Source: Bacteroidota bacterium
GTDB taxonomy: Bacteria; Bacteroidota; Bacteroidia; JABEUT01
Assembly (NCBI GenBank): GCA_013285655.1
Contig: JABDHI010000023.1
Span: forward strand, 1-41,915
Direction of reading: 5' to 3'
DNA length: 41,915 nt
Positions 6,985 to 15,637 of the stretch are shown here, one piece after another. A model generated the notes under the pieces. The model saw only the letters and a program-made list of their open reading frames with translations, was not told the origin of the DNA and did not search any database. The position numbers and the translations under genes are program-made. Numbering within the stretch: position 1 is the first letter of the stretch; every line of letters starts with the position of its first letter.

Positions 6985-7104
6985 TTAATAAAGTCTTTCG
7001 GCTGCATCTTTATGCAATTTCCTAACCAGGCTTCTTTGTTCATTACACGAACTGAGGCCGACAATGCCAACAAGTAATAATAATACGATCATAGTAGTTT
7101 TCAT
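6985..7104 (-). CDS. 39-residue lipoprotein
   Basis: Very short gene on the minus strand, ATG at 7102-7104 and TAA at 6985-6987. The product starts MKTTMIVLLLLVG, has a lipobox LSSC with the acylated cysteine at residue 20, and a mature part of 20 residues only (NEQRSLVRKLHKDAAERLY after the cysteine). The size and form recall entericidin-like small lipoproteins, though the mature peptide is more charged and helical. A -7-like box TAGTTTTA lies 27 bases upstream, with three tandem 9-mers beyond it matching those before 14606 and 15026. That shared, precise promoter design is the best evidence that this tiny gene is real and regulated. Confidence 0.65.
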   Translation of the reverse strand: MKTTMIVLLLLVGIVGLSSCNEQRSLVRKLHKDAAERLY

Positions 7105-7131: not shown

Positions 7132-7220
7132 TAAAACTACAGTGCGTTTAAAGGAAAATTTATGTGAATGTAATGACAGCTATGTAGTTATGTAATGAAC
7201 CCCGAAAACAAGGTTATGAA
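7132..7220 (-). promoter_or_regulatory. LytTR-type triple direct repeat promoter of the small lipoprotein
   Basis: Plus-strand copies TGTAATGAC (7169-7177), TGTAATGAA (7191-7199) and a weaker GGTTATGAA (7212-7220) are spaced 22 and 21 bp, reading TTCATTACA toward the lipoprotein. The -7-like box is TAGTTTTA (7139 to 7132). The gap between proximal repeat and -7 box is 29 bases. Confidence 0.7.
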
Positions 7221-7239
7221 TTAGAATATAAGTTTAGGC

Positions 7240-8463
7240 CTAACTTATTTCAATACCCACCACAAGTATATCATCCGTTTGTTCTTCATTCTGCCTCCAC
7301 TTCTCTAAATTGTCGTGCAGCGTTTTTTTATTGACGGCCATTCTCTCATCGCAAAGTTGTGTTAAAAGGTCCTTAAACCCCGTAGTTTTAAATTTTTTGC
7401 CGTGTTTTCCGCCAAACTGATCGGCATAACCATCGGTGCATAAGTAGAATTTATCACCCTTTTCTACTTTAATCGTTTCATTCTTGTAGGGCTTCCCTTC
7501 ATAATGCCCTCCGCCAATAGGTTGAGGCGAGCCCTTAATTTCTGTCAGCACTTTATTCCGGGTATAATAAATAGGGCGCCTTGCACTCGAAAATGTAAGG
7601 TTGGAGTTTGCTTTATCAATAGAACAAATAATTATATCCATTCCATCGTGTATCTCTTCAGTATGCTTTCCAAGGTCAAATATCTCCCTAAAGGCCCTAT
7701 TCATTTCGTTCAATATACCTGCAGGGTCAGCTATGTTTTTTAAGTAAACCGTATTCTTAAGCAAATGGTATCCTATCATAGAAAGTAAAGAACCCGGTAC
7801 GCCATGTCCTGTGCAATCGCCTACCGCAATTATGAACTTATCCTTATACTCTTCAAACCAATAAAAATCGCCACTAATAATATCCTTTGGGCGATATAAC
7901 ACAAATGACTCAGGAAAATGCTTATTGAGTAGCCTGATATCAGGCATTATGGCTCTTTGTATCCTGCGGGCGTAGGTTATACTATCGGTTATGTCCTTGT
8001 TCTTCTGGGCTATTATTTCGTTTGCATTTCTAAGCCTTTCGTTAAGGTTTTTCACTATGCTGTTCTCTGCTTTCAGGTCTTTCTTATTAATTGCGCTTTC
8101 AATAATTGATGGCAACCTTATTAGATTACCCTTTAGCACATAATCCTCTGCCCCATTTTTTATACATCTTACAGCAAATTCTTCAGAAACGGAACCTGTA
8201 ACCAAAACAAAGGGTATATCCGGATAAGAGTCCTTTACAATTTGCAAGGCCGTTAAAGAATCGAATTGAGGAAGACTATGATCGGACAAAATAATATCGG
8301 GAGCAAAAGAAGACAAGCCACGCATAAATTGCTCCTTATTTTCGGCGTGCGTTATATTGAATGAAAAATTCGATTTATACAAAGCTCTCTTAATAAGCTC
8401 TACATCGTCTTTATCATCTTCAAGTACAAGTATTTTAAGGCCTCCTGGTAATGCTATATCCAT
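7240..8463 (-). CDS. REC-SpoIIE (PP2C) response regulator phosphatase
   Basis: 407 residues. The receiver domain at about 8-125 keeps D61 (IILSDHSLP) and K in YVLKGN. A coiled coil follows at about 130-165, ending in ITDSITYARRIQRAIMP, typical for SpoIIE-type output in Bacteroidota. The PP2C domain (about 190-405) has the metal-binding motifs SGDFYWF, GDCTGHGVPG and CTDGYADQFGG. The protein should be a Ser/Thr phosphatase switched by phosphorylation of its receiver domain. It is the last gene of the five-gene operon, one base after the REC-LytTR stop. Its receiver is closely similar to that of the REC-kinase at the head of the operon. A STAS-type target is expected for this enzyme class; none lies in the operon. 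Confidence 0.92.
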   Translation of the reverse strand: MDIALPGGLKILVLEDDKDDVELIKRALYKSNFSFNITHAENKEQFMRGLSSFAPDIILSDHSLPQFDSLTALQIVKDSYPDIPFVLVTGSVSEEFAVRCIKNGAEDYVLKGNLIRLPSIIESAINKKDLKAENSIVKNLNERLRNANEIIAQKNKDITDSITYARRIQRAIMPDIRLLNKHFPESFVLYRPKDIISGDFYWFEEYKDKFIIAVGDCTGHGVPGSLLSMIGYHLLKNTVYLKNIADPAGILNEMNRAFREIFDLGKHTEEIHDGMDIIICSIDKANSNLTFSSARRPIYYTRNKVLTEIKGSPQPIGGGHYEGKPYKNETIKVEKGDKFYLCTDGYADQFGGKHGKKFKTTGFKDLLTQLCDERMAVNKKTLHDNLEKWRQNEEQTDDILVVGIEIS

Positions 8464-8464
8464 C

Positions 8465-9181
8465 TTAACTATAAAACATACGTTCTTTAAATTTTTTCTT
8501 AAAAGCAGCTCCCAGGGTTATTTGTTTAGGCTTACCGTTCTCTGCTTTTATTCCTTTAAGGGTAATCAAATCATGCTCTACTTCATGCACGGCTTCCAAT
8601 GAAACTGCTTCAGCTCTGTTCACCTGCACTAGCGTTGCTGAATTCGCCGTGAGGTGCTCTATTTTGCAATTCATAAGTGTATATGTTTCTCCGGTTTTAA
8701 GCCATGCCTGTTTATGGCGCGGGTCAACATCATCAGTAGTAATAAGCATAATATCCTGCAGGCGAATTTTAACCTTTTTACTAGACTCAGCTACATTAAA
8801 AAGTTCGTATTCTTTCTTTTCAGCAAACATATTAAAGGCCTTTTCAAAAGCCTTGTATAACCTGTCCTTCAGTATCGGCTTAGGCACAATATCTACCGGC
8901 GATAAATTAAGAGCATCTCTGTATTTTTGATCAGCACCGCTTATAAATATTATTGGCTTATTACTTATAACCTGTGCCAATGTGGTTCCTTCCATCTGTG
9001 GCATTTCAATATCGAGCAGGCAAAGGTCAAATTCTATCATGGGAGCATGCTCCAGGAACTCTTTAGGGTTGGAAAATGTTTTTACTAATTCTACAACGGC
9101 AGATTCTTTGCACATCTGTTCTAAAGTAGAAAGAATGGTTTCGTTGTCATCTACTGCAACGGCTCTTAGTTTTTTTAACAT
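8465..9181 (-). CDS. REC-LytTR DNA-binding response regulator
   Basis: 238 residues. The receiver domain holds D11/D12, phospho-acceptor D57 (LCLLDIEMPQMEG), a serine in FISGA and lysine in IVPKPI. From about residue 135 the sequence follows the LytTR pattern: VKIRLQDIMLITTDD, TYTLMNCKIEHL, VQVNRAEAVSLEAV, HDLITLKGI and a C-terminal ITLGAAFKKKFKERM. LytTR domains bind pairs of 9-bp direct repeats separated by 12-13 bp. Three promoters flanking this operon carry exactly such arrays, so this protein is the prime candidate for binding them; that is inference. It is the fourth gene of the operon, 37 bases after the single-REC gene and one base before the phosphatase gene. Confidence 0.88.
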   Translation of the reverse strand: MLKKLRAVAVDDNETILSTLEQMCKESAVVELVKTFSNPKEFLEHAPMIEFDLCLLDIEMPQMEGTTLAQVISNKPIIFISGADQKYRDALNLSPVDIVPKPILKDRLYKAFEKAFNMFAEKKEYELFNVAESSKKVKIRLQDIMLITTDDVDPRHKQAWLKTGETYTLMNCKIEHLTANSATLVQVNRAEAVSLEAVHEVEHDLITLKGIKAENGKPKQITLGAAFKKKFKERMFYS

Positions 9182-9218
9182 CGGGGTAGTTTTACGTTAT
9201 GCAAATATTTTTTAATGT

Positions 9219-9668
9219 TTAATCTTTTTTAGGTAGTTCATTAAGTACCAGCCAGTAAAGCCCCAGCTCAGATACTTTATGCGTAAATGCATCGAAACCC
9301 AATGGCTTAACGATATAACTGTTTACGCCCAGTCGGTAACAGGTTTTAATATCCGGATCTTCCGCAGAAGATGTTAGTACCACAACAGGTATGTGCTTCG
9401 TGCGTTCATCCGATTTCAGTCTTTCCAGTACCTCTATGCCGTTTATTTTAGGCATTTTCAAATCGAGTAATATAACCTTTGGTGCATTGTTAATGTCCCG
9501 GCCTTTATACACGCCTTCAGCAAAAACAAAATCCAGCGCCTCTGCACCATCTTGCAAATGCACTAAATTATTAGCCAGATTTTGCTTCTTAAGGGTTCTG
9601 ATGGCCAAAGCGGCGTCATCCGGGTTATCCTCTACCAGGATAATTTCAACAGCATCATTCATTTTCAT
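9219..9668 (-). CDS. single-domain receiver protein (Rcp1-like)
   Basis: 149 residues made of one receiver domain with no output domain. It has E13/D14 in LVEDNPDDA, phospho-acceptor D69 ([13 protein letters not shown]), T/S in VLTSS and K in IVKPLGF. The loop after beta-2 with FAEGVYKGR and the C-terminal helix with GLYWLVLNE are typical of the Rcp1-like response regulators that accompany phytochrome-type and PAS kinases. It probably shuttles phosphate between the triple-PAS kinase just upstream (23 bases) and other receivers. The start may be the first or third codon (MKM). Confidence 0.9.
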
Positions 9669-9691
9669 ATTCGGAGTTTATATATTGCTGA

Positions 9692-11743
9692 TTAATTAAC
9701 AGGTTGTAACGCTATGTAAAAAGTGGCACCATTACCGGGTTCAGCCTCCGCCCATACCCTTCCTCCATGTCGGGTAATAATACGCTTTACCAGGGCCAGG
9801 CCCACGCCGGTCCCTTCAAATTCGGTAGTGCTATGCAGCCGCTGAAACACACCAAAAAGTTTATTATAATACTTCATATCAAAACCAACTCCGTTATCCT
9901 TAATACTATAAACCGTTTCGTTATCGTTTTTATATGAGTCTATAACAATTACCGGGTCTTCTATTTTACCTGAATATTTTACTGCATTACCAATAAGGTT
10001 TGTAAACACATTTTCTATTAACGAACTATCAGCCATTGCCGGCATCAGGTTATTTATCTTGACTTTTGCTTTTAATTGATTACCGTTGGCAAATTGCACC
10101 GTTTTAAGTGCTGATTTAGCAACAATATTCATATCGGTTGTGGTTATGTTCATTTCCTTTTTTCCCATACGCGAAAAGGCCAGCAAGTCGTCAATCAATT
10201 GGCTCATTCGTTCTGCGTTAGATGCAACAGAACCCATCATCTTCTGGGCATCTTCTGCCAGATTGGCGGCATAATCTTCCATTAATATTTTGGTGTATCC
10301 CCTTATTGCCCTTAATGGCGCCCTCAGATCGTGCGATACCGAATAACTAAACGATTCGAGTTCTTTATTGGCCAACTCCATTTCTCCAACACTTCGGGTT
10401 AGGTCGTAATTAAGTTGCTTTATCTGCTCATCTACTACCCTCTTTTCTGTTATGTCTTCACTTATACCTAAAAGATACAAGGGCATTCCGGCTGCATCTT
10501 TAATTGGTATCTTTCGTGTATGTAACCAACGTTGCCCTTCTTTTGTTGTTATAACTTCTTCGGCTATATCAAATACTTTATTACCTTGCAATACTTCCTT
10601 ATCCTTTAGTATAAATTTATTGGCTTGTTCTTCTGGGAAAAAATCATGGTCGCTCTTACCTATTAACTCTTTGCGGGAAAGCCCCAATAACTCTTCCCCT
10701 GATCTATTAAATCTTACGAATTTAAGCGTACGGGCATCCTTAACAAACACCATGTTAGGAATATTTTCCAACACTGAATCAAGAAATTCATTGGATCTTT
10801 TTATTTCTTCTTCGAATTTTTTCCGTGCGGTAAGATCTCTTGTAATTTTTGAAAAACCTGTATGCTTTCCATCATCATCAAAAACAGGGGTGTAAATTAC
10901 ATTCGCCCAAAACACCGACCTGTCTTTACGTATGCGCCATCCCTCAACCTCGCAACTACCTTCTTCCAATGCGGTCTTCAGGTTTTTCAATAAAACTCCT
11001 TCTTCTCTTTCTTTATCTAAATAAAATATTGATGCTGATTTTCCAATTATTTCATTTTCCTTATATCCTTTTATTCGTTCAGCTCCTTTATTCCAGCTAA
11101 TTACAATACCTTTCTTATCGATCATAAAAATAGCGTAGTCTTTAACGCTTTGGGTAAGGAGCCTGAATCTCTCCTCACTTTCAATTAATTTCTGCACATA
11201 TTCTTTTTCCGAAGCTTCTAATGCTTTATTGCGCTTGATTTGAGTAGCTTCGCGTTCCTTAGCTTCAATACCTTCGGTTATATCTTTTACACAATGAATT
11301 ATATAAATTATTTTACCATCTTTATCTAATACAGGGGTATTAATAGGATCCCAGTACTTCACTTCCCAACCACCTCCATCCTTAGCAGGCTTTTGTATAT
11401 CATACTTCTGCACAGCCATGGCGTGCTTTCTCTTATTTTTTAATACGTAGTTTAACGAGCTGCGAAGGTTGGACACTCCATCAGCTGTTGTATCATTCGG
11501 GTTATCAGGGAAAACGTCAAAGATTCCTTTCCCCGTTATTTCTTCACGTTTTGTTAATGTGGCTTTAGTATAATTATCGCTTACAGCTACAATGGTGAAA
11601 TTTTCATCAGGTAATAAAACAAGATATAAACCTTGCACCGACTCAAAGAGTCTTTGAAAGTCTACCAGCTCAGAAACTGGTTTGCTGACAATTTTCTTCT
11701 TTGCATCAATTTTCTTTTTAAGAGGTGGTCTCTTTTCCTTCAT
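9692..11743 (-). CDS. triple-PAS histidine kinase
   Basis: 683 residues without a membrane span. After a basic N-terminus (KKKIDAKKK) come three PAS domains at about 25-155, 190-310 and 325-440, each ending in the PAC-like D-I-T-E / D-L-T-A signature, joined by short coiled coils. The kinase core follows: SYSVSHDLRAPLRAI holds the histidine at about residue 470, the N box is NVFTNLIGNAVKYSG, G1 is DNGVGFD and G2 GTGVGLALVKRI. The H-box form is that of the phytochrome-like HisKA kinases. It is probably the main signal input of the operon; ligands cannot be read from sequence. It starts 7 bases after the REC-kinase stop. Confidence 0.93.
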   Translation of the reverse strand: MKEKRPPLKKKIDAKKKIVSKPVSELVDFQRLFESVQGLYLVLLPDENFTIVAVSDNYTKATLTKREEITGKGIFDVFPDNPNDTTADGVSNLRSSLNYVLKNKRKHAMAVQKYDIQKPAKDGGGWEVKYWDPINTPVLDKDGKIIYIIHCVKDITEGIEAKEREATQIKRNKALEASEKEYVQKLIESEERFRLLTQSVKDYAIFMIDKKGIVISWNKGAERIKGYKENEIIGKSASIFYLDKEREEGVLLKNLKTALEEGSCEVEGWRIRKDRSVFWANVIYTPVFDDDGKHTGFSKITRDLTARKKFEEEIKRSNEFLDSVLENIPNMVFVKDARTLKFVRFNRSGEELLGLSRKELIGKSDHDFFPEEQANKFILKDKEVLQGNKVFDIAEEVITTKEGQRWLHTRKIPIKDAAGMPLYLLGISEDITEKRVVDEQIKQLNYDLTRSVGEMELANKELESFSYSVSHDLRAPLRAIRGYTKILMEDYAANLAEDAQKMMGSVASNAERMSQLIDDLLAFSRMGKKEMNITTTDMNIVAKSALKTVQFANGNQLKAKVKINNLMPAMADSSLIENVFTNLIGNAVKYSGKIEDPVIVIDSYKNDNETVYSIKDNGVGFDMKYYNKLFGVFQRLHSTTEFEGTGVGLALVKRIITRHGGRVWAEAEPGNGATFYIALQPVN

Positions 11744-11750
11744 ACATCAA

Positions 11751-12869
11751 CTAAAAAGTAACAGTAAACGTGGTCCCTTTGCCTACTTCGCTCTTGCAAT
11801 CAATACTTCCTTTAAGTGCCGCAACCAAATCTTTAACAATAGAAAGACCAAGACCATTACTTGGCTCGTTGTTAGTTGGTTTTGGACTAAGTTTCTGAAA
11901 CCTTCCATACATCTTTTGTATATCTTCTTTAGGTATACCCTGGCCTTCGTCCTTTACTTTTAAAATATACTTTCTATCCTTCTTCGCTATCTCAACCTTT
12001 ATGCCTTTGCCGGGGTTTGTATACTTAATTGCATTAGATATAAGGTTATCTGTAATAATGGAAAAATAACTTACATCCGTCCTGAAAAAAGTGTCCTTAC
12101 ATTTATTTGAATATGTAACCTTTATGTTTTTCCGTATAGCCGCATCTTCGTACCTATCAACAATATCCTGTACTAGGTTACCTACATTCACCAAATTATA
12201 AAGCGGATTAATAATGCCTGATTGAATACGGTTTACCGTTAAAAAATCAGATATAAGAGTACGCATATGTACAACAGTTCTGTCTAGGCGGTTTATCTGC
12301 GAATCTCGCTTGTTACTAATACCCGAAACAGAAGTCTTTATTGAATCGACTATATGTCCCATTGAAGCAACATAGTTTTGTAAGTCATGTGATACAATAC
12401 CCATGAACCTGTCCTTCTCCTGATTTAAGTAATCAAGTTCATTGTTTTTCTTTTCTATTTCCGCATTCAGTCGCTTAATAATTATATTCTCTTCCTCCAG
12501 TTTCCTTTTCTGTATACTGGTTTCTATAGCCGCCGGCAAACGCGATAGATTATTTTTTAATATATAATCATCAGCACCTGCTTTCATACACGACACGGCA
12601 AACTCTTCTGATACTGAACCTGTGACAAGAATAAATGGCACGTTAGGCATCTCTTCTTTAGCAATTTTGAGGGCTGCAAGCGAATTAAATTGCGGTAAGG
12701 AATGGTCAGATAGAATTACATCTGGCTTGAATTGTTTAACTGCATTCGTGAATTCATCACGTGTATCTACACGATGACTTATAAAGCGCATCTTATCTCT
12801 GGTGAGTTGTCTCTCAATAAGATCGGCATCTTCTACAAAATCTTCCAACATTAGTATTTTTATACTCAT
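11751..12869 (-). CDS. REC-histidine kinase, first gene of the phosphorelay operon
   Basis: With the start at 12869 (MSIKILMLEDFVED) the protein has 372 residues: a receiver domain (phospho-acceptor D in VILSDHSLPQF, K in YILKNN), a coiled coil, then HisKA with the histidine in GIVSHDLQNYVASM and an ATPase domain (NLISNAIKYTNPG, DEGQGIP, NGLGLSIVKDL). An N-terminal receiver ahead of the kinase makes kinase activity itself subject to phosphorylation. The frame is open to an ATG at 12965, but those 32 extra residues do not look like part of a receiver domain. A -7 box at 12985-12992 would give a leader of about 110 bases to the chosen start or about 13 to the longer one, so the longer start is not excluded. 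Confidence 0.88.
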   Translation of the reverse strand: MSIKILMLEDFVEDADLIERQLTRDKMRFISHRVDTRDEFTNAVKQFKPDVILSDHSLPQFNSLAALKIAKEEMPNVPFILVTGSVSEEFAVSCMKAGADDYILKNNLSRLPAAIETSIQKRKLEEENIIIKRLNAEIEKKNNELDYLNQEKDRFMGIVSHDLQNYVASMGHIVDSIKTSVSGISNKRDSQINRLDRTVVHMRTLISDFLTVNRIQSGIINPLYNLVNVGNLVQDIVDRYEDAAIRKNIKVTYSNKCKDTFFRTDVSYFSIITDNLISNAIKYTNPGKGIKVEIAKKDRKYILKVKDEGQGIPKEDIQKMYGRFQKLSPKPTNNEPSNGLGLSIVKDLVAALKGSIDCKSEVGKGTTFTVTF

Positions 12870-12984
12870 AATTCTTATCGGGGTTTGGTTAACGTACACT
12901 ATATCTTGTTCTGCAATCATAAATACATTAGATAAGTAAAAATCCCCTCTAATCATTACGTTCATCCAACGTAATTACTAAAAC

Positions 12985-13064
12985 CAAAATTACATTACTA
13001 AAAGGAGAAAAGAAATCCGTATAAATACCTAATTTTCAAAATCAGTTATCCGTATAAATACCTA
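12985..13064 (-). promoter_or_regulatory. promoter of the phosphorelay operon with two TAGGTATTTATACGGA boxes
   Basis: On the minus strand two identical 16-mers TAGGTATTTATACGGA (13064-13049 and 13031-13016) are 33 bp apart. 23 bases after the second is a -7 box TAATTTTG (12992-12985). Box sequence, orientation and distance to the -7 box match the promoter at 3886-3978. Confidence 0.65.
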
Positions 13065-13167
13065 GTATTAATGTGCCTTATAAGAATCACAAAGTATACT
13101 TACGTGCTCAAAATCAGAATAATTATGAGTAGTTTATTTGTAATATCTTATAGTCTATTGGTATAAA

Positions 13168-13198
13168 ACAAAAATGCCCGGTATGCCGGGCATTTTTT
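13168..13198 (-). terminator. terminator of the NHL-repeat gene
   Basis: Stem ATGCCCGG / CCGGGCAT with a TATG loop, and A/T runs on both sides. It lies 50 bases after the NHL-protein stop and separates it from the phosphorelay operon promoter. Confidence 0.85.
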
Positions 13199-13247
13199 CT
13201 ATCTATGTTAAACAACTAATTAAAACAAAGATATCGTATCGTTAAAA

Positions 13248-14606
13248 CTATTCTTTGATGAATCTAGCAATTTGAGTACAATTATCGTTCATGATAGCTT
13301 GTGCAAAATATACACCAGGAGTTAAAGAGTTAATATCAACGGTAGTAGCTTGATCATTAGCAACTTCGGTTGCAAAGCTCATTACTTCTTTACCAGTCAT
13401 ATCTATAATTCTTACTGTTGCATGTTCCGAACTGTTTTGTAAGTTAAAGCTAATGTTAATGTTTTGGCGAGCAGGATTAGGATATACTGATACAGAAGTT
13501 GTTGCAGTAACATTATTTACACTAGTGAACAAATTACCAATAACTCTTATTTCGTTGTTGCCGAAGTCTGCAACATATAGGTTACCACTTATATCAGATG
13601 CGATCCCTCTTGGATTATTGAAGGTTCCTGAAGAGCCAGTACCATTATTTGCACCTTCACTCCTTGAGCCTGCTAAAGTGCTTACCGTTCCGGTTGCAAT
13701 TACAATTTTACGTATTTGGTTATTGTCTCCATCTGCCACAAACAAATCACCATTACCATCAGCTGTTATACCATAAGGAGCGTCAAATTTTGCAGAAGCA
13801 CCAATACCATTTGTAGAACCCCATGAAGTAGAACCGGCAACTGTAGACACCATTCCGGTTGCAAGAACTATTTTACGTATTTCGTTATTGCCTTCGTCCA
13901 CAACATACAAATTGCCCTCGCCATCTGTAGTTACTCCCGAAGGGTAGTTAAAACTTGCAGCTGCCCCCTTACCATCAGCTGAACCTGTGCAACTAGAACC
14001 GGCTATGGTGGTTACAGCACCAGTTGCAACAACTATCTTTCTTATTGCTGAGTTAAGCCCGCCGGCAACATACAGGTTGCCTTGTGCATCACAAGTAATA
14101 CCGCATGGGTGGTAAAAGCTGGCAGCAGTTCCAACTCCATCAGAACCTCCATCCTTTCCTGAACCTGCAAGTGTAGTAACTGCGCCGGTTGCAAGAACTA
14201 TCTTTCTGATTTGATTGTTATAAGAGTCTGCCACATATAAGTTGCCTTGTGCATCACAAGTAATGCTCGTAGGATAGTTAAACCTTGCAGCAGTATCTGT
14301 TCCGTTAGCTGAACCTGCTTCTGTTGAACCTGCAACGGTAGTAACCGCTCCTGTTTCTATTGATATTTTACGTATTTCGTTATTACCGGCATCTGCAATA
14401 TACAAATTACCTTGTCCATCAGTAGCAACTCCAAATGGGTTATTAAAACTTGCCGAAGTGCTTACTCCATCATTTGAGCCTGCATTTGTTGTACCTGCTA
14501 AGGTGTTTACTTGTTGTGCACCTGCAAAAGTAACTGCACATACCAGTACTGTCATTAATTTAACCTTTAGGCTGCTTGCTGTTTTTGTTTGGAAGTTCGT
14601 TTTCAT
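13248..14606 (-). CDS. secreted six-bladed NHL propeller with T9SS sorting domain
   Basis: 452 residues. A signal peptide (1-30) is followed by six NHL repeats of about 55 residues (about 54-355), each with F-N-x-P-x-G-I/V, D-G-x-G-N-L-Y-V-A-D and N-N-x-I-R-K-I, joined by linkers of the form ATGAVTTxAGS. Such repeats form a six-bladed propeller for protein or glycan contacts; the linkers are Gly/Ser/Thr rich. The C-terminal 85 residues are a type A T9SS sorting domain (VSVYPNPARQNINISF, MTGKEVMSF, LTPGVYFAQAI), so the protein is predicted to cross the outer membrane and be surface-attached or released. It has its own -7 box (14635-14642), a triple LytTR-like array upstream and a terminator. 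Confidence 0.93.
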   Translation of the reverse strand: MKTNFQTKTASSLKVKLMTVLVCAVTFAGAQQVNTLAGTTNAGSNDGVSTSASFNNPFGVATDGQGNLYIADAGNNEIRKISIETGAVTTVAGSTEAGSANGTDTAARFNYPTSITCDAQGNLYVADSYNNQIRKIVLATGAVTTLAGSGKDGGSDGVGTAASFYHPCGITCDAQGNLYVAGGLNSAIRKIVVATGAVTTIAGSSCTGSADGKGAAASFNYPSGVTTDGEGNLYVVDEGNNEIRKIVLATGMVSTVAGSTSWGSTNGIGASAKFDAPYGITADGNGDLFVADGDNNQIRKIVIATGTVSTLAGSRSEGANNGTGSSGTFNNPRGIASDISGNLYVADFGNNEIRVIGNLFTSVNNVTATTSVSVYPNPARQNINISFNLQNSSEHATVRIIDMTGKEVMSFATEVANDQATTVDINSLTPGVYFAQAIMNDNCTQIARFIKE

Positions 14607-14634
14607 GATATTTTGTTTTAATTAGTTTATGAAG

Positions 14635-14724
14635 CAAACATACAGCCGTAACAGGGGGTAGCGGGGTAGCTATGTAACGAGAAGTAGCCACATTTGTAAT
14701 GAACATATGAAACTCTGTAATGAA
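14635..14724 (-). promoter_or_regulatory. LytTR-type triple direct repeat promoter of the NHL protein
   Basis: Plus-strand copies TGTAACGAG (14673-14681), TGTAATGAA (14695-14703) and TGTAATGAA (14716-14724) are spaced 22 and 21 bp. On the minus strand they read TTCATTACA toward the gene. The -7 box is TATGTTTG (14642-14635) and the gap to the proximal repeat is 30 bases. The leader is about 22-29 bases. Confidence 0.75.
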
Positions 14725-14771
14725 TTTTCAAAGCGATTAATACAAGGCTCCGACAAACATTATTATATAAG

Positions 14772-14786
14772 TAGTTATTATAACTA
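14772..14786. repeat. 15-bp palindrome in the divergent intergenic region
   Basis: TAGTTAT-T-ATAACTA is a perfect odd palindrome between the two LytTR-like arrays. The rest of the intergenic stretch 14725-14903 is AT-rich and shows no gene that I can support. It could be an operator or chance in AT-rich DNA. Confidence 0.35.
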
Positions 14787-14903
14787 TATATATACCTCCC
14801 TTTTTAAAATGGCTATTTTTTGCTTGCACTATCCTATAGATAAGACTTAAGTCCTCCTTTATAGAAATACCTGCCAAAGCACCTTTTTTAGAAACACCAA
14901 AGG

Positions 14904-14991
14904 TTCATTACATAATTTCTTGCATTCATTACCTATAGTGCCTTATTCATTGCATACACAAAGCATAAGGCCCGATACCGATATAGTTTTG
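14904..14991 (+). promoter_or_regulatory. LytTR-type triple direct repeat promoter of the 203-residue exported protein
   Basis: TTCATTACA (14904-14912), TTCATTACC (14925-14933) and TTCATTGCA (14946-14954) repeat at exactly 21 bp. A -7 box TAGTTTTG (14984-14991) follows after 29 bases. No TTG lies at the usual -33 position, as expected for an activator-dependent promoter whose proximal site covers that region. Confidence 0.75.
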
Positions 14992-15025: not shown

Positions 15026-15637
15026 ATGAAAAATTCAATCTTAATATTACTGGTAGCTGGAAGTTTGACCGCCGGCAATTTATTTGCAACAAACAACAAC
15101 AGGAACAATGGGGCTAAAAGAGATACATTAAACATTAAATGCCTGCTTTATTCACCAAATGCATTTTATGCAGCTGAATTAGGCGAAACCCCGTTAAAAA
15201 ACACTGTGGATTCGTTGGCTGCCTCTATTCCTTACGATAGCACTCAAAATTTAAACCTAGTGGTAGTATCGGCGGCTGACCTTGGCCTTCAAAATCTGGC
15301 TGATGTTCAATGGGATGAATTACTTGATAGCGCCATAAGCCATGGTTATCAGCCATGTCCTGCACAAGCCGGTCCAGAACTTTACCTGCTTTCTCAATGC
15401 GTAAAACTGCATAACATGCCAACTACTGAGCCTATATTTATTGGAATGCAGGAAATAACACCCAAAAAGCATAAATTCATGGGTATTTCGCTTAAAAAAG
15501 AAGAAGCATTTGTATTCTGCCTTAAATCAAAGGACCATGGAAAATCATACAAACTGGGTTATGCAAGCACACAATTGGGTAATAAAAGCTACATATGGTC
15601 AGCCGATGATAAGTTTGTGTTCGTAAAAGGAAAATAA
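15026..15637 (+). CDS. exported protein of unknown function (203 aa)
   Basis: I do not recognise the family. A signal peptide (residues 1-21, ending LFAT) is followed by a Asn-rich linker (NNNRNNGAKR) and a mixed alpha/beta domain with YSPNAFYAAELGETPLKN, NLNLVVVSAADLGLQNL and a Cys-containing middle (PCPAQAGPELYLLSQC). The mature part has four cysteines, which could form disulfides in the periplasm. The end (YIWSADDKFVFVKGK) has no T9SS tail or anchor, so a periplasmic location is likely. It is divergent from the NHL/T9SS gene and shares the same promoter architecture, which suggests joint production. A terminator follows 60 bases downstream. Confidence 0.75.
   Translation: MKNSILILLVAGSLTAGNLFATNNNRNNGAKRDTLNIKCLLYSPNAFYAAELGETPLKNTVDSLAASIPYDSTQNLNLVVVSAADLGLQNLADVQWDELLDSAISHGYQPCPAQAGPELYLLSQCVKLHNMPTTEPIFIGMQEITPKKHKFMGISLKKEEAFVFCLKSKDHGKSYKLGYASTQLGNKSYIWSADDKFVFVKGK

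Follow-up and report, generated by a model that had tools for sequence, protein, structure and literature searches.

Triple 21-bp repeat arrays near a divergent REC-LytTR gene are probable LytTR-type operators in Bacteroidota promoters

A 41,915-nucleotide stretch of DNA from a Bacteroidota bacterium (assembly GCA_013285655.1, contig JABDHI010000023.1), referred to here as the window, contains three promoters that each carry three 9-bp direct repeats in steps of 21-22 bp, followed at a near-constant distance by a -7 box. These arrays are probably the operators of a response regulator of LytTR type, the likeliest binder being the REC-LytTR protein encoded at 8465-9181 of the same window. The assignment draws on the geometry of the arrays, on their recurrence at five promoters of the source genome, and, most strongly, on the presence of much the same layout immediately downstream of many related regulator genes across the phylum.

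Repeat arrays in the window

An earlier note on this DNA, made from its letters, had placed nine 9-mers in three sets, and all nine occur where it put them (Table 1). Recounting returned the same periods (22/21, 22/21, and 21/21 bp) and the same gaps between proximal copy and box (29, 30, and 29 bases), and all three sets face their gene, in the constant orientation that had been described. The boxes resemble TAnnTTTG, the -7 box consensus of Bacteroidota promoters given in the available excerpt of PMC9723704. The arrays have the features by which a LytTR operator is defined, namely direct repeats of 9 bp, separated by 10-13 bp and all in one orientation.

Table 1. Arrays, proposed target genes, and signalling genes of the window. 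Repeats are written in letters read toward the gene.
Feature	Coordinates	Strand	Remark
Set 1 distal repeat TTCATAACC	7212..7220	minus	
Set 1 middle repeat TTCATTACA	7191..7199	minus	
Set 1 proximal repeat GTCATTACA	7169..7177	minus	
Set 1 -7 box TAGTTTTA	7132..7139	minus	5/6 vs TAnnTTTG
Set 2 distal repeat TTCATTACA	14716..14724	minus	
Set 2 middle repeat TTCATTACA	14695..14703	minus	
Set 2 proximal repeat CTCGTTACA	14673..14681	minus	
Set 2 -7 box TATGTTTG	14635..14642	minus	6/6 vs TAnnTTTG
Set 3 distal repeat TTCATTACA	14904..14912	plus	
Set 3 middle repeat TTCATTACC	14925..14933	plus	
Set 3 proximal repeat TTCATTGCA	14946..14954	plus	
Set 3 -7 box TAGTTTTG	14984..14991	plus	6/6 vs TAnnTTTG
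39-aa lipoprotein-like open reading frame (...LSSC...)	6985..7104	minus	proposed set 1 target; from translation
NHL-repeat protein with sorting domain of the type IX secretion system (T9SS)	13248..14606	minus	proposed set 2 target; Pfam NHL 1.7e-33
203-aa exported-looking protein	15026..15637	plus	proposed set 3 target; signal peptide by eye
REC-LytTR response regulator	8465..9181	minus	proposed array binder; REC 1.8e-16, LytTR 15.2 bits
REC-SpoIIE phosphatase	7240..8463	minus	signalling-cluster neighbour; domain matches
Single-domain response regulator	9219..9668	minus	domain matches
PAS sensor histidine kinase	9692..11743	minus	domain matches
REC-histidine kinase	11751..12869	minus	domain matches

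A motif-free count of triple repeats (9-mers with ≤2 mismatches at steps of 20-22 bp) gave five in the window, three of which are these arrays; 200 Markov-1 windows averaged 0.26 and never exceeded 2. The best triple score was 39.1 in the window and ≤22.6 in 200 Markov windows; the matrix behind this score was trained on the arrays themselves and is therefore circular and a guide only, the same null being scored with it. When the five arrays of the source genome (below) were aligned with one each from the related genomes G009 and G061, the sites and the distances between them were constant and the intervening DNA was variable, except that TAGTTTT tends to follow the distal copy.

Arrays elsewhere in the same genome

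The source assembly (2.69 Mb, 121 contigs, 68.7% complete), in which the window is contig 23, has Bacteroidia metagenome bins as its closest named relatives. Contigs, genomes, and loci are labeled C, G, and L, respectively, and "own" denotes the window's genome. A strict triple pattern retrieved set 3 only and, being too strict, was replaced by mismatch-tolerant and model-based searches. Two-copy matches with ≤3 mismatches numbered 27 in the own genome versus 5 in a reversed control. Seven of the 27 lie inside five arrays, and the remaining 20 were followed up only if their triple score reached 15. Among the matches reaching that score, the only ones outside the window to combine a third copy with a -7 box at 29 bases were C6:38653 (minus) and C98:4432 (plus). 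Two-copy matches on C26 and C11 were left uncounted, as no -7 box at 29 bp was seen by eye.

All five strong arrays, three of them in the window, have their -7 box 29-30 bases away. Model R1, a sequence model of array plus box built from seven arrays (the own five and two from relatives), scored these five at 62.6-71.2 bits and the next own match at 14.0 bits. Across the genome, the arrays keep the period and promoter position that the earlier note had expected of a true operator, with five strong examples before the drop. That note had also proposed a small regulon; the shared promoter array stands, and the size does not, since at least five promoters rather than three carry it. Three of the five arrays lie ≤6 kb from the regulator gene. 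Both of those outside the window precede exported-looking proteins, of which the C6 product (C6:38098-38559) is a paralogue of the 203-aa protein (39% identical across the matched region), and the C98 product has a signal-like start in a coding sequence that runs off the contig.

The regulator

The candidate binder is a protein of 238 aa with an N-terminal receiver domain (PF00072, 1.8e-16). Its C-terminal domain scored 15.2 bits against the Pfam LytTR profile, under the curated cut-off of 22.6, and in regulator set A3 (17 members, the window protein included) 12 of 17 match LytTR at E ≤0.1. An AlphaFold model from a 39-row alignment (mean predicted local distance difference test score 91.5) places a beta-rich domain at the C-terminus. 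The five best PDB matches to this model are all full-length ComE, itself a REC-LytTR regulator (top match 4cbv; E 1e-11 to 2e-10), in alignments of 256-269 columns that span both domains. Global template modeling scores are low (0.39-0.47, with root-mean-square deviations of 13-15 Å), and the relative domain placement is therefore different or unsure. The structure prediction thus supports a divergent REC-LytTR protein with the LytTR fold: the earlier REC-LytTR assignment holds for the receiver and for the predicted fold, and the Pfam LytTR score does not reach its threshold.

Among NCBIfam models spanning the receiver and the C-terminal domain, BtsR (PRK11697) scores best (41 bits, residues 5-233). 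This is far below its 246-bit equivalog cut-off, and the window regulator is not a BtsR orthologue; two relatives reach 81-82 bits. The CheB model outscores PRK11697 but spans the receiver only. A sequence search of PDB chains with the C-terminal domain was discarded after returning short stretches of designed repeat proteins and Cas2 at E 0.36. The own genome encodes a paralogue of the regulator on C4 (68% identical) and three canonical LytTR proteins on C67, C8, and C13.

Regulator relatives across Bacteroidota

To gather related regulators, an alignment of seven of them was used as the query against a contig collection of 84,980 species, and the best 80 of 125 relatives (L107-L186) were analyzed. 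These loci come from Chitinophagaceae, Cytophagaceae, Flavobacteriaceae, Prolixibacteraceae, Sphingobacterium, and others, and are mutually related rather than independent trials. The pair-scan matrix was made from the window's nine repeats only, and the 80 loci were never used in training. A TTCATTACA-like pair at exactly 21 bp was found on the sense strand ≤600 bp downstream of the regulator gene at 48/80 loci, beginning 0-2 bases past the stop codon in 34 of the 48. Such pairs occurred at 0/80 loci antisense, at 1/80 upstream, and in 2/363 distant stretches. None scored ≥16 at 17 other LytTR-like or response-regulator loci; at the same threshold, set A3 gave 7/17, one of the seven being weak. 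The ComE-like predicted fold and the counts of 48/80 and 0/17 support the reading that the arrays are of LytTR type. A motif-free scan also placed 21 bp as the top repeat step (28/160 flanks versus 6.1 scaled from distant stretches) and gave a further peak at 33 bp (18 versus 6.1).

In 39 of the 48 loci, a -7-like box (≥5/6 matches to TAnnTTTG) begins either 50 bases (28 loci) or 49 bases (11 loci) beyond the second copy, a distance equal to 12 + 9 + 29 or one less, as the geometry of the window predicts. The third slot shows only a weak TTYATTNCA-like bias. A -33 TTG element is part of the sigma-A type Bacteroidota promoter, and no TTG enrichment was seen at the predicted -33 distances in the 40 relatives whose box lies at 49-51.

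The longest downstream open reading frame measures 750-810 aa at 54/80 loci and at 36 of the 48 with an array. All three such frames that were tested are of the Na+/H+-exchanger type (PF00999), and the others were called antiporter-like from similar starts. For one, the nearest NCBIfam models were CPA2 antiporters at 164.4 bits, below the 238.3 cut-off. A single upstream kinase was put to Pfam, that at L197 (genome G109, outside the 80 loci), and it is LytS-like (PF06580).

A second model, R2, was built from the arrays of 37 of the 40 relatives, with the window's and R1's arrays excluded; the three left out are L111 (in R1 as G061) and L159 and L174, near copies of L151 and L165. In the own genome, R2 gave first rank to set 3 (20.5 bits) and third rank to set 2 (16.8 bits). 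Its second-ranked hit (17.7 bits, on C10) was rejected as an array, since it is antisense in an RND-pump-like gene (by eye) and is interrupted by an N run. Of six class-wide R2 matches viewed in their surroundings, L194 and L197 adjoin a regulator of the clade, and L192, L193, L195, and L207 showed none within roughly 3 kb around the match. R2 was set aside as a class-wide regulon finder for being too diffuse.

Arrays in the genus and in close relatives

R1 retrieved arrays in G009 (67.3, 52.1, and 40.8 bits), G001 (48.4, 38.8, and 23.7), G007 (32.2, 27.7, and 26.8), and G003 (27.1), with weaker matches below these. Across 11 genomes of the genus, two-copy matches with ≤2 mismatches numbered 29 versus 2 in the reversed control. 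The regulator cluster of G009 has a strong array in front of its SpoIIE phosphatase gene and a weaker array in front of a protein that by eye resembles the start of the own C98 product. Pairs lie ≤1.5 kb from a regulator homologue in G061, G002, G003, G001, and G047, and weakly in G031; G061, G047, and G031 are outside the genus. The family of the 203-aa protein comprises four copies in 3/100 genomes searched (the window's included), and an array stands at three of the four: own set 3, own C6, and C41 of G001, where it precedes the homologue.

Some 21-bp repeats have drifted in sequence, including those of G008 (ACTATGTTGC type, found by script) and of G005 and G023 (by eye). On the upstream side of a related regulator gene, the scripted search of G008 located a triple 21-bp repeat of GCAACATAGT type (L040, 10173-10224), and similar repeats were seen by eye on the downstream flank as well. 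The unchanged geometry and altered bases of G008 possibly reflect co-evolution with the LytTR domain. In G023, the downstream flank of L020 reads, by eye, TTCATTGCC / TTCATCGGC / TTCATCGGT at 21-bp steps and then TAAGTTTG; the layout is similar, and the preceding regulator is 27% identical. Near-identical CTTGTTACA / CTTATTACA / CTTGTTACA arrays occur in G007 (C27:2139-2223 and C128:1302-1370), both directly after partial regulator matches.

Comparison with known LytTR systems

Published systems are compared here as they appear in the available excerpts of the cited papers. The usual LytTR operator is a pair of 9-bp direct repeats separated by 10-13 bp, and RcoM1, like most LytTR regulators, activates from sites upstream of the -35 element (PMC11347149). 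Three direct repeats, as in the window, are known from RcoM1 and CoxC, with an RcoM1 consensus of three copies of TTCNNGCA at 12-13 bp spacers (PMC11347149). These proteins differ from the window regulator in being one-component CO sensors instead of REC response regulators, with 8-bp sites and non-Bacteroidota promoters, and CoxC, unlike the activator proposed below, represses (PMC11347149). HdrR recognizes two 9-bp repeats, most such operons having 12-bp spacers; the difference lies in the number of repeats and in their position beside -35 promoters (PMC6193735).

YpdB, of the Escherichia coli LytS/LytTR system YpdA/YpdB, is likewise a LytTR response regulator acting on direct repeats, those of the yhjX operator. 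The yhjX oligonucleotide in PMC4847170 contains TTCATTCCT, TTCATTCCG, and TTCATGCCG at 21/21 bp, three TTCATKCC copies that are close to TTCATTACA in sequence and identical to the window arrays in period. YpdB differs in that two sites (A and B, in GGCATTTCAT) are described rather than three (PMC4847170), and in its proteobacterial promoter, the yhjX target being a putative transporter (PMC6545925). The additional copy in the oligonucleotide, which is TTCATTCC-like, is found 21 bp further upstream than the two described YpdB sites.

No described Bacteroidota LytTR operator was found among the open-licence PMC papers listed for the topic, and the excerpt of a Flavobacterium johnsoniae paper (PMC10197871) contains nothing on LytTR sites. 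A literature text search for the letters TTCATTACA gave nothing related among the first matches listed.

Proposed mechanism and alternatives

In the proposed mechanism, one of the histidine kinases of the cluster would phosphorylate the REC-LytTR regulator at 8465-9181, which would then bind head to tail on the three 9-bp sites, spaced by two helical turns and all on the same face of the DNA. The flavobacterial -7 box covers -12..-5 (PMC9723704), and with the same placement set 3 would start at ~14996. Its sites would then fall at about -50..-42, -71..-63, and -92..-84, ending just behind the polymerase. The proximal site would put the regulator beside RNA polymerase, and the promoter shows no clear -33 element. 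An activator is suggested by this missing element together with three same-face sites that end behind the polymerase. The outputs switched on would be an exported lipoprotein, a T9SS-secreted NHL protein, and the 203-aa exported protein, along with no fewer than two other promoters of the same genome.

The architecture common to these promoters may be written as copy - 21 - copy - 21 - weaker copy - 29 - TAnnTTTG, and downstream of many related REC-LytTR genes such an array usually faces a cation:proton antiporter-like gene. We read this layout as a widespread activator operator that was adapted in the window's lineage to secreted proteins. A broader proposal, which we favor by a narrow measure, is a phylum-wide code in which regulators of this clade use three 9-bp sites at 21-bp steps, the last 29 bp from TAnnTTTG, with a weak proximal site and a strong distal pair. 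The bases would drift with the regulator (TTCATTACA, TTCATCGGC, and CAACATAGT types) while the geometry stays fixed, and the target would have switched from an ion antiporter to secreted proteins in the window's lineage. Under such drift with fixed geometry, the targets of each regulator would be readable beside its own gene.

Several observations weigh against assigning the arrays to this regulator and its clade. Among the 80 relatives, 32 fall under the pair threshold, though drifted motifs occur in some relatives, and the same scan shows a lesser spacing peak at 26 bp (11/80). R2 is weak in the own genome, where it topped out at 20.5 bits and missed set 1, C6, and C98, and it matched just 16/99 genomes of the class. 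In 138 genomes outside the genus, two-copy matches numbered 189 versus 141 in the control, or 182 versus 99 once G123 and G140, both crowded with control matches, are excluded. Genome-wide counts outside the genus being so little above control, the phylum-wide signal sits at the regulator gene rather than in a large regulon. No array lies near the own C4 paralogue or near the regulator relatives of G006 and G010 (68% identical each), which cautions against reading regulator-array pairing as a fixed rule. G006, which is 99% complete, has nothing above 13.2 bits genome-wide, and its homologue of the 203-aa protein is without an array. A link between array presence and the regulator tree was likewise not supported: on a 17-row tree with hand-set labels (11 of 17 rows), array presence required five changes, and 338/500 shuffles were as low.

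In an unlikely alternative, the arrays are LytTR operators bound by another own LytTR protein and 8465-9181 is a bystander. The C4 paralogue, at 68% identity, is one candidate, the three canonical proteins could also be the binder, and G006 shows that a regulator relative may exist without arrays. Yet three of the five own arrays flank the cluster of the 8465-9181 regulator, no pair scoring ≥16 occurs at the C4 locus or at the three canonical LytTR loci, and many relatives of the window regulator carry the pair across the phylum. We also consider it improbable that the arrays are repressor operators, at which the bound regulator blocks transcription until a signal relieves the block. CoxC offers a precedent for repression by a three-repeat LytTR regulator (PMC11347149), but its operator overlaps the -35 box, whereas the sites here end 29-30 bases before the -7 box. 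The lack of -33 TTG enrichment in the 40 relatives with a box is also what activator-dependent promoters would be expected to show. Coincidence, or a recently duplicated stretch devoid of regulatory meaning, is very improbable and already contradicted: most two-copy matches with ≤3 mismatches do lie outside the five own arrays (20 of 27), but the triple score far exceeds its null maximum (39.1 versus 22.6), the DNA between sites differs among arrays as sites and distances hold, and the layout recurs across the phylum.

Target genes and signalling cluster

The 39-residue lipoprotein of the earlier note was confirmed as an open reading frame, its lipobox being judged by eye. The note's T9SS-exported NHL propeller likewise finds support in Pfam, with matches to NHL and to the sorting domain PF18962 (Por_Secre_tail, 5.5e-15). 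For the 203-residue protein the reading frame stands, export is judged by eye from the signal peptide, and no match was found in Pfam or NCBIfam. The two histidine kinases, the lone receiver, and the REC-SpoIIE phosphatase may, from their domains, constitute a branched phosphorelay.

Two further features lie between the NHL gene and the kinase cluster. Three degenerate ATTAC copies at ~20-bp steps (12952-12996, plus) stand upstream of the minus-strand kinase gene (12869). They could represent an autoregulatory array, the remains of a decayed one, or mere coincidence, and were weighed as a further array and left as unproven. A GC-rich hairpin with a T run on each side (13171-13198, by eye) separates the NHL gene from the kinase cluster; it is likely a two-way terminator, which would stop set 2 from driving the kinases.

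Significance

The arrays would be a new and widely conserved example of a three-repeat LytTR operator, an operator type that was itself already known. In E. coli, the third 21-bp-spaced copy seen in the excerpted sequence of the well-studied yhjX promoter deserves attention. The array is read as conserved beside many related regulators, and the genes under such regulators would then be predictable from sequence; a fixed-spacing operator that often sits right downstream of its regulator gene may allow LytTR targets to be predicted genome by genome. For the organism of the window, orphan secreted proteins would be linked to a two-component system. For the family, the diverging regulator-operator pairs would form a natural series useful for working out the rules of LytTR-DNA recognition.

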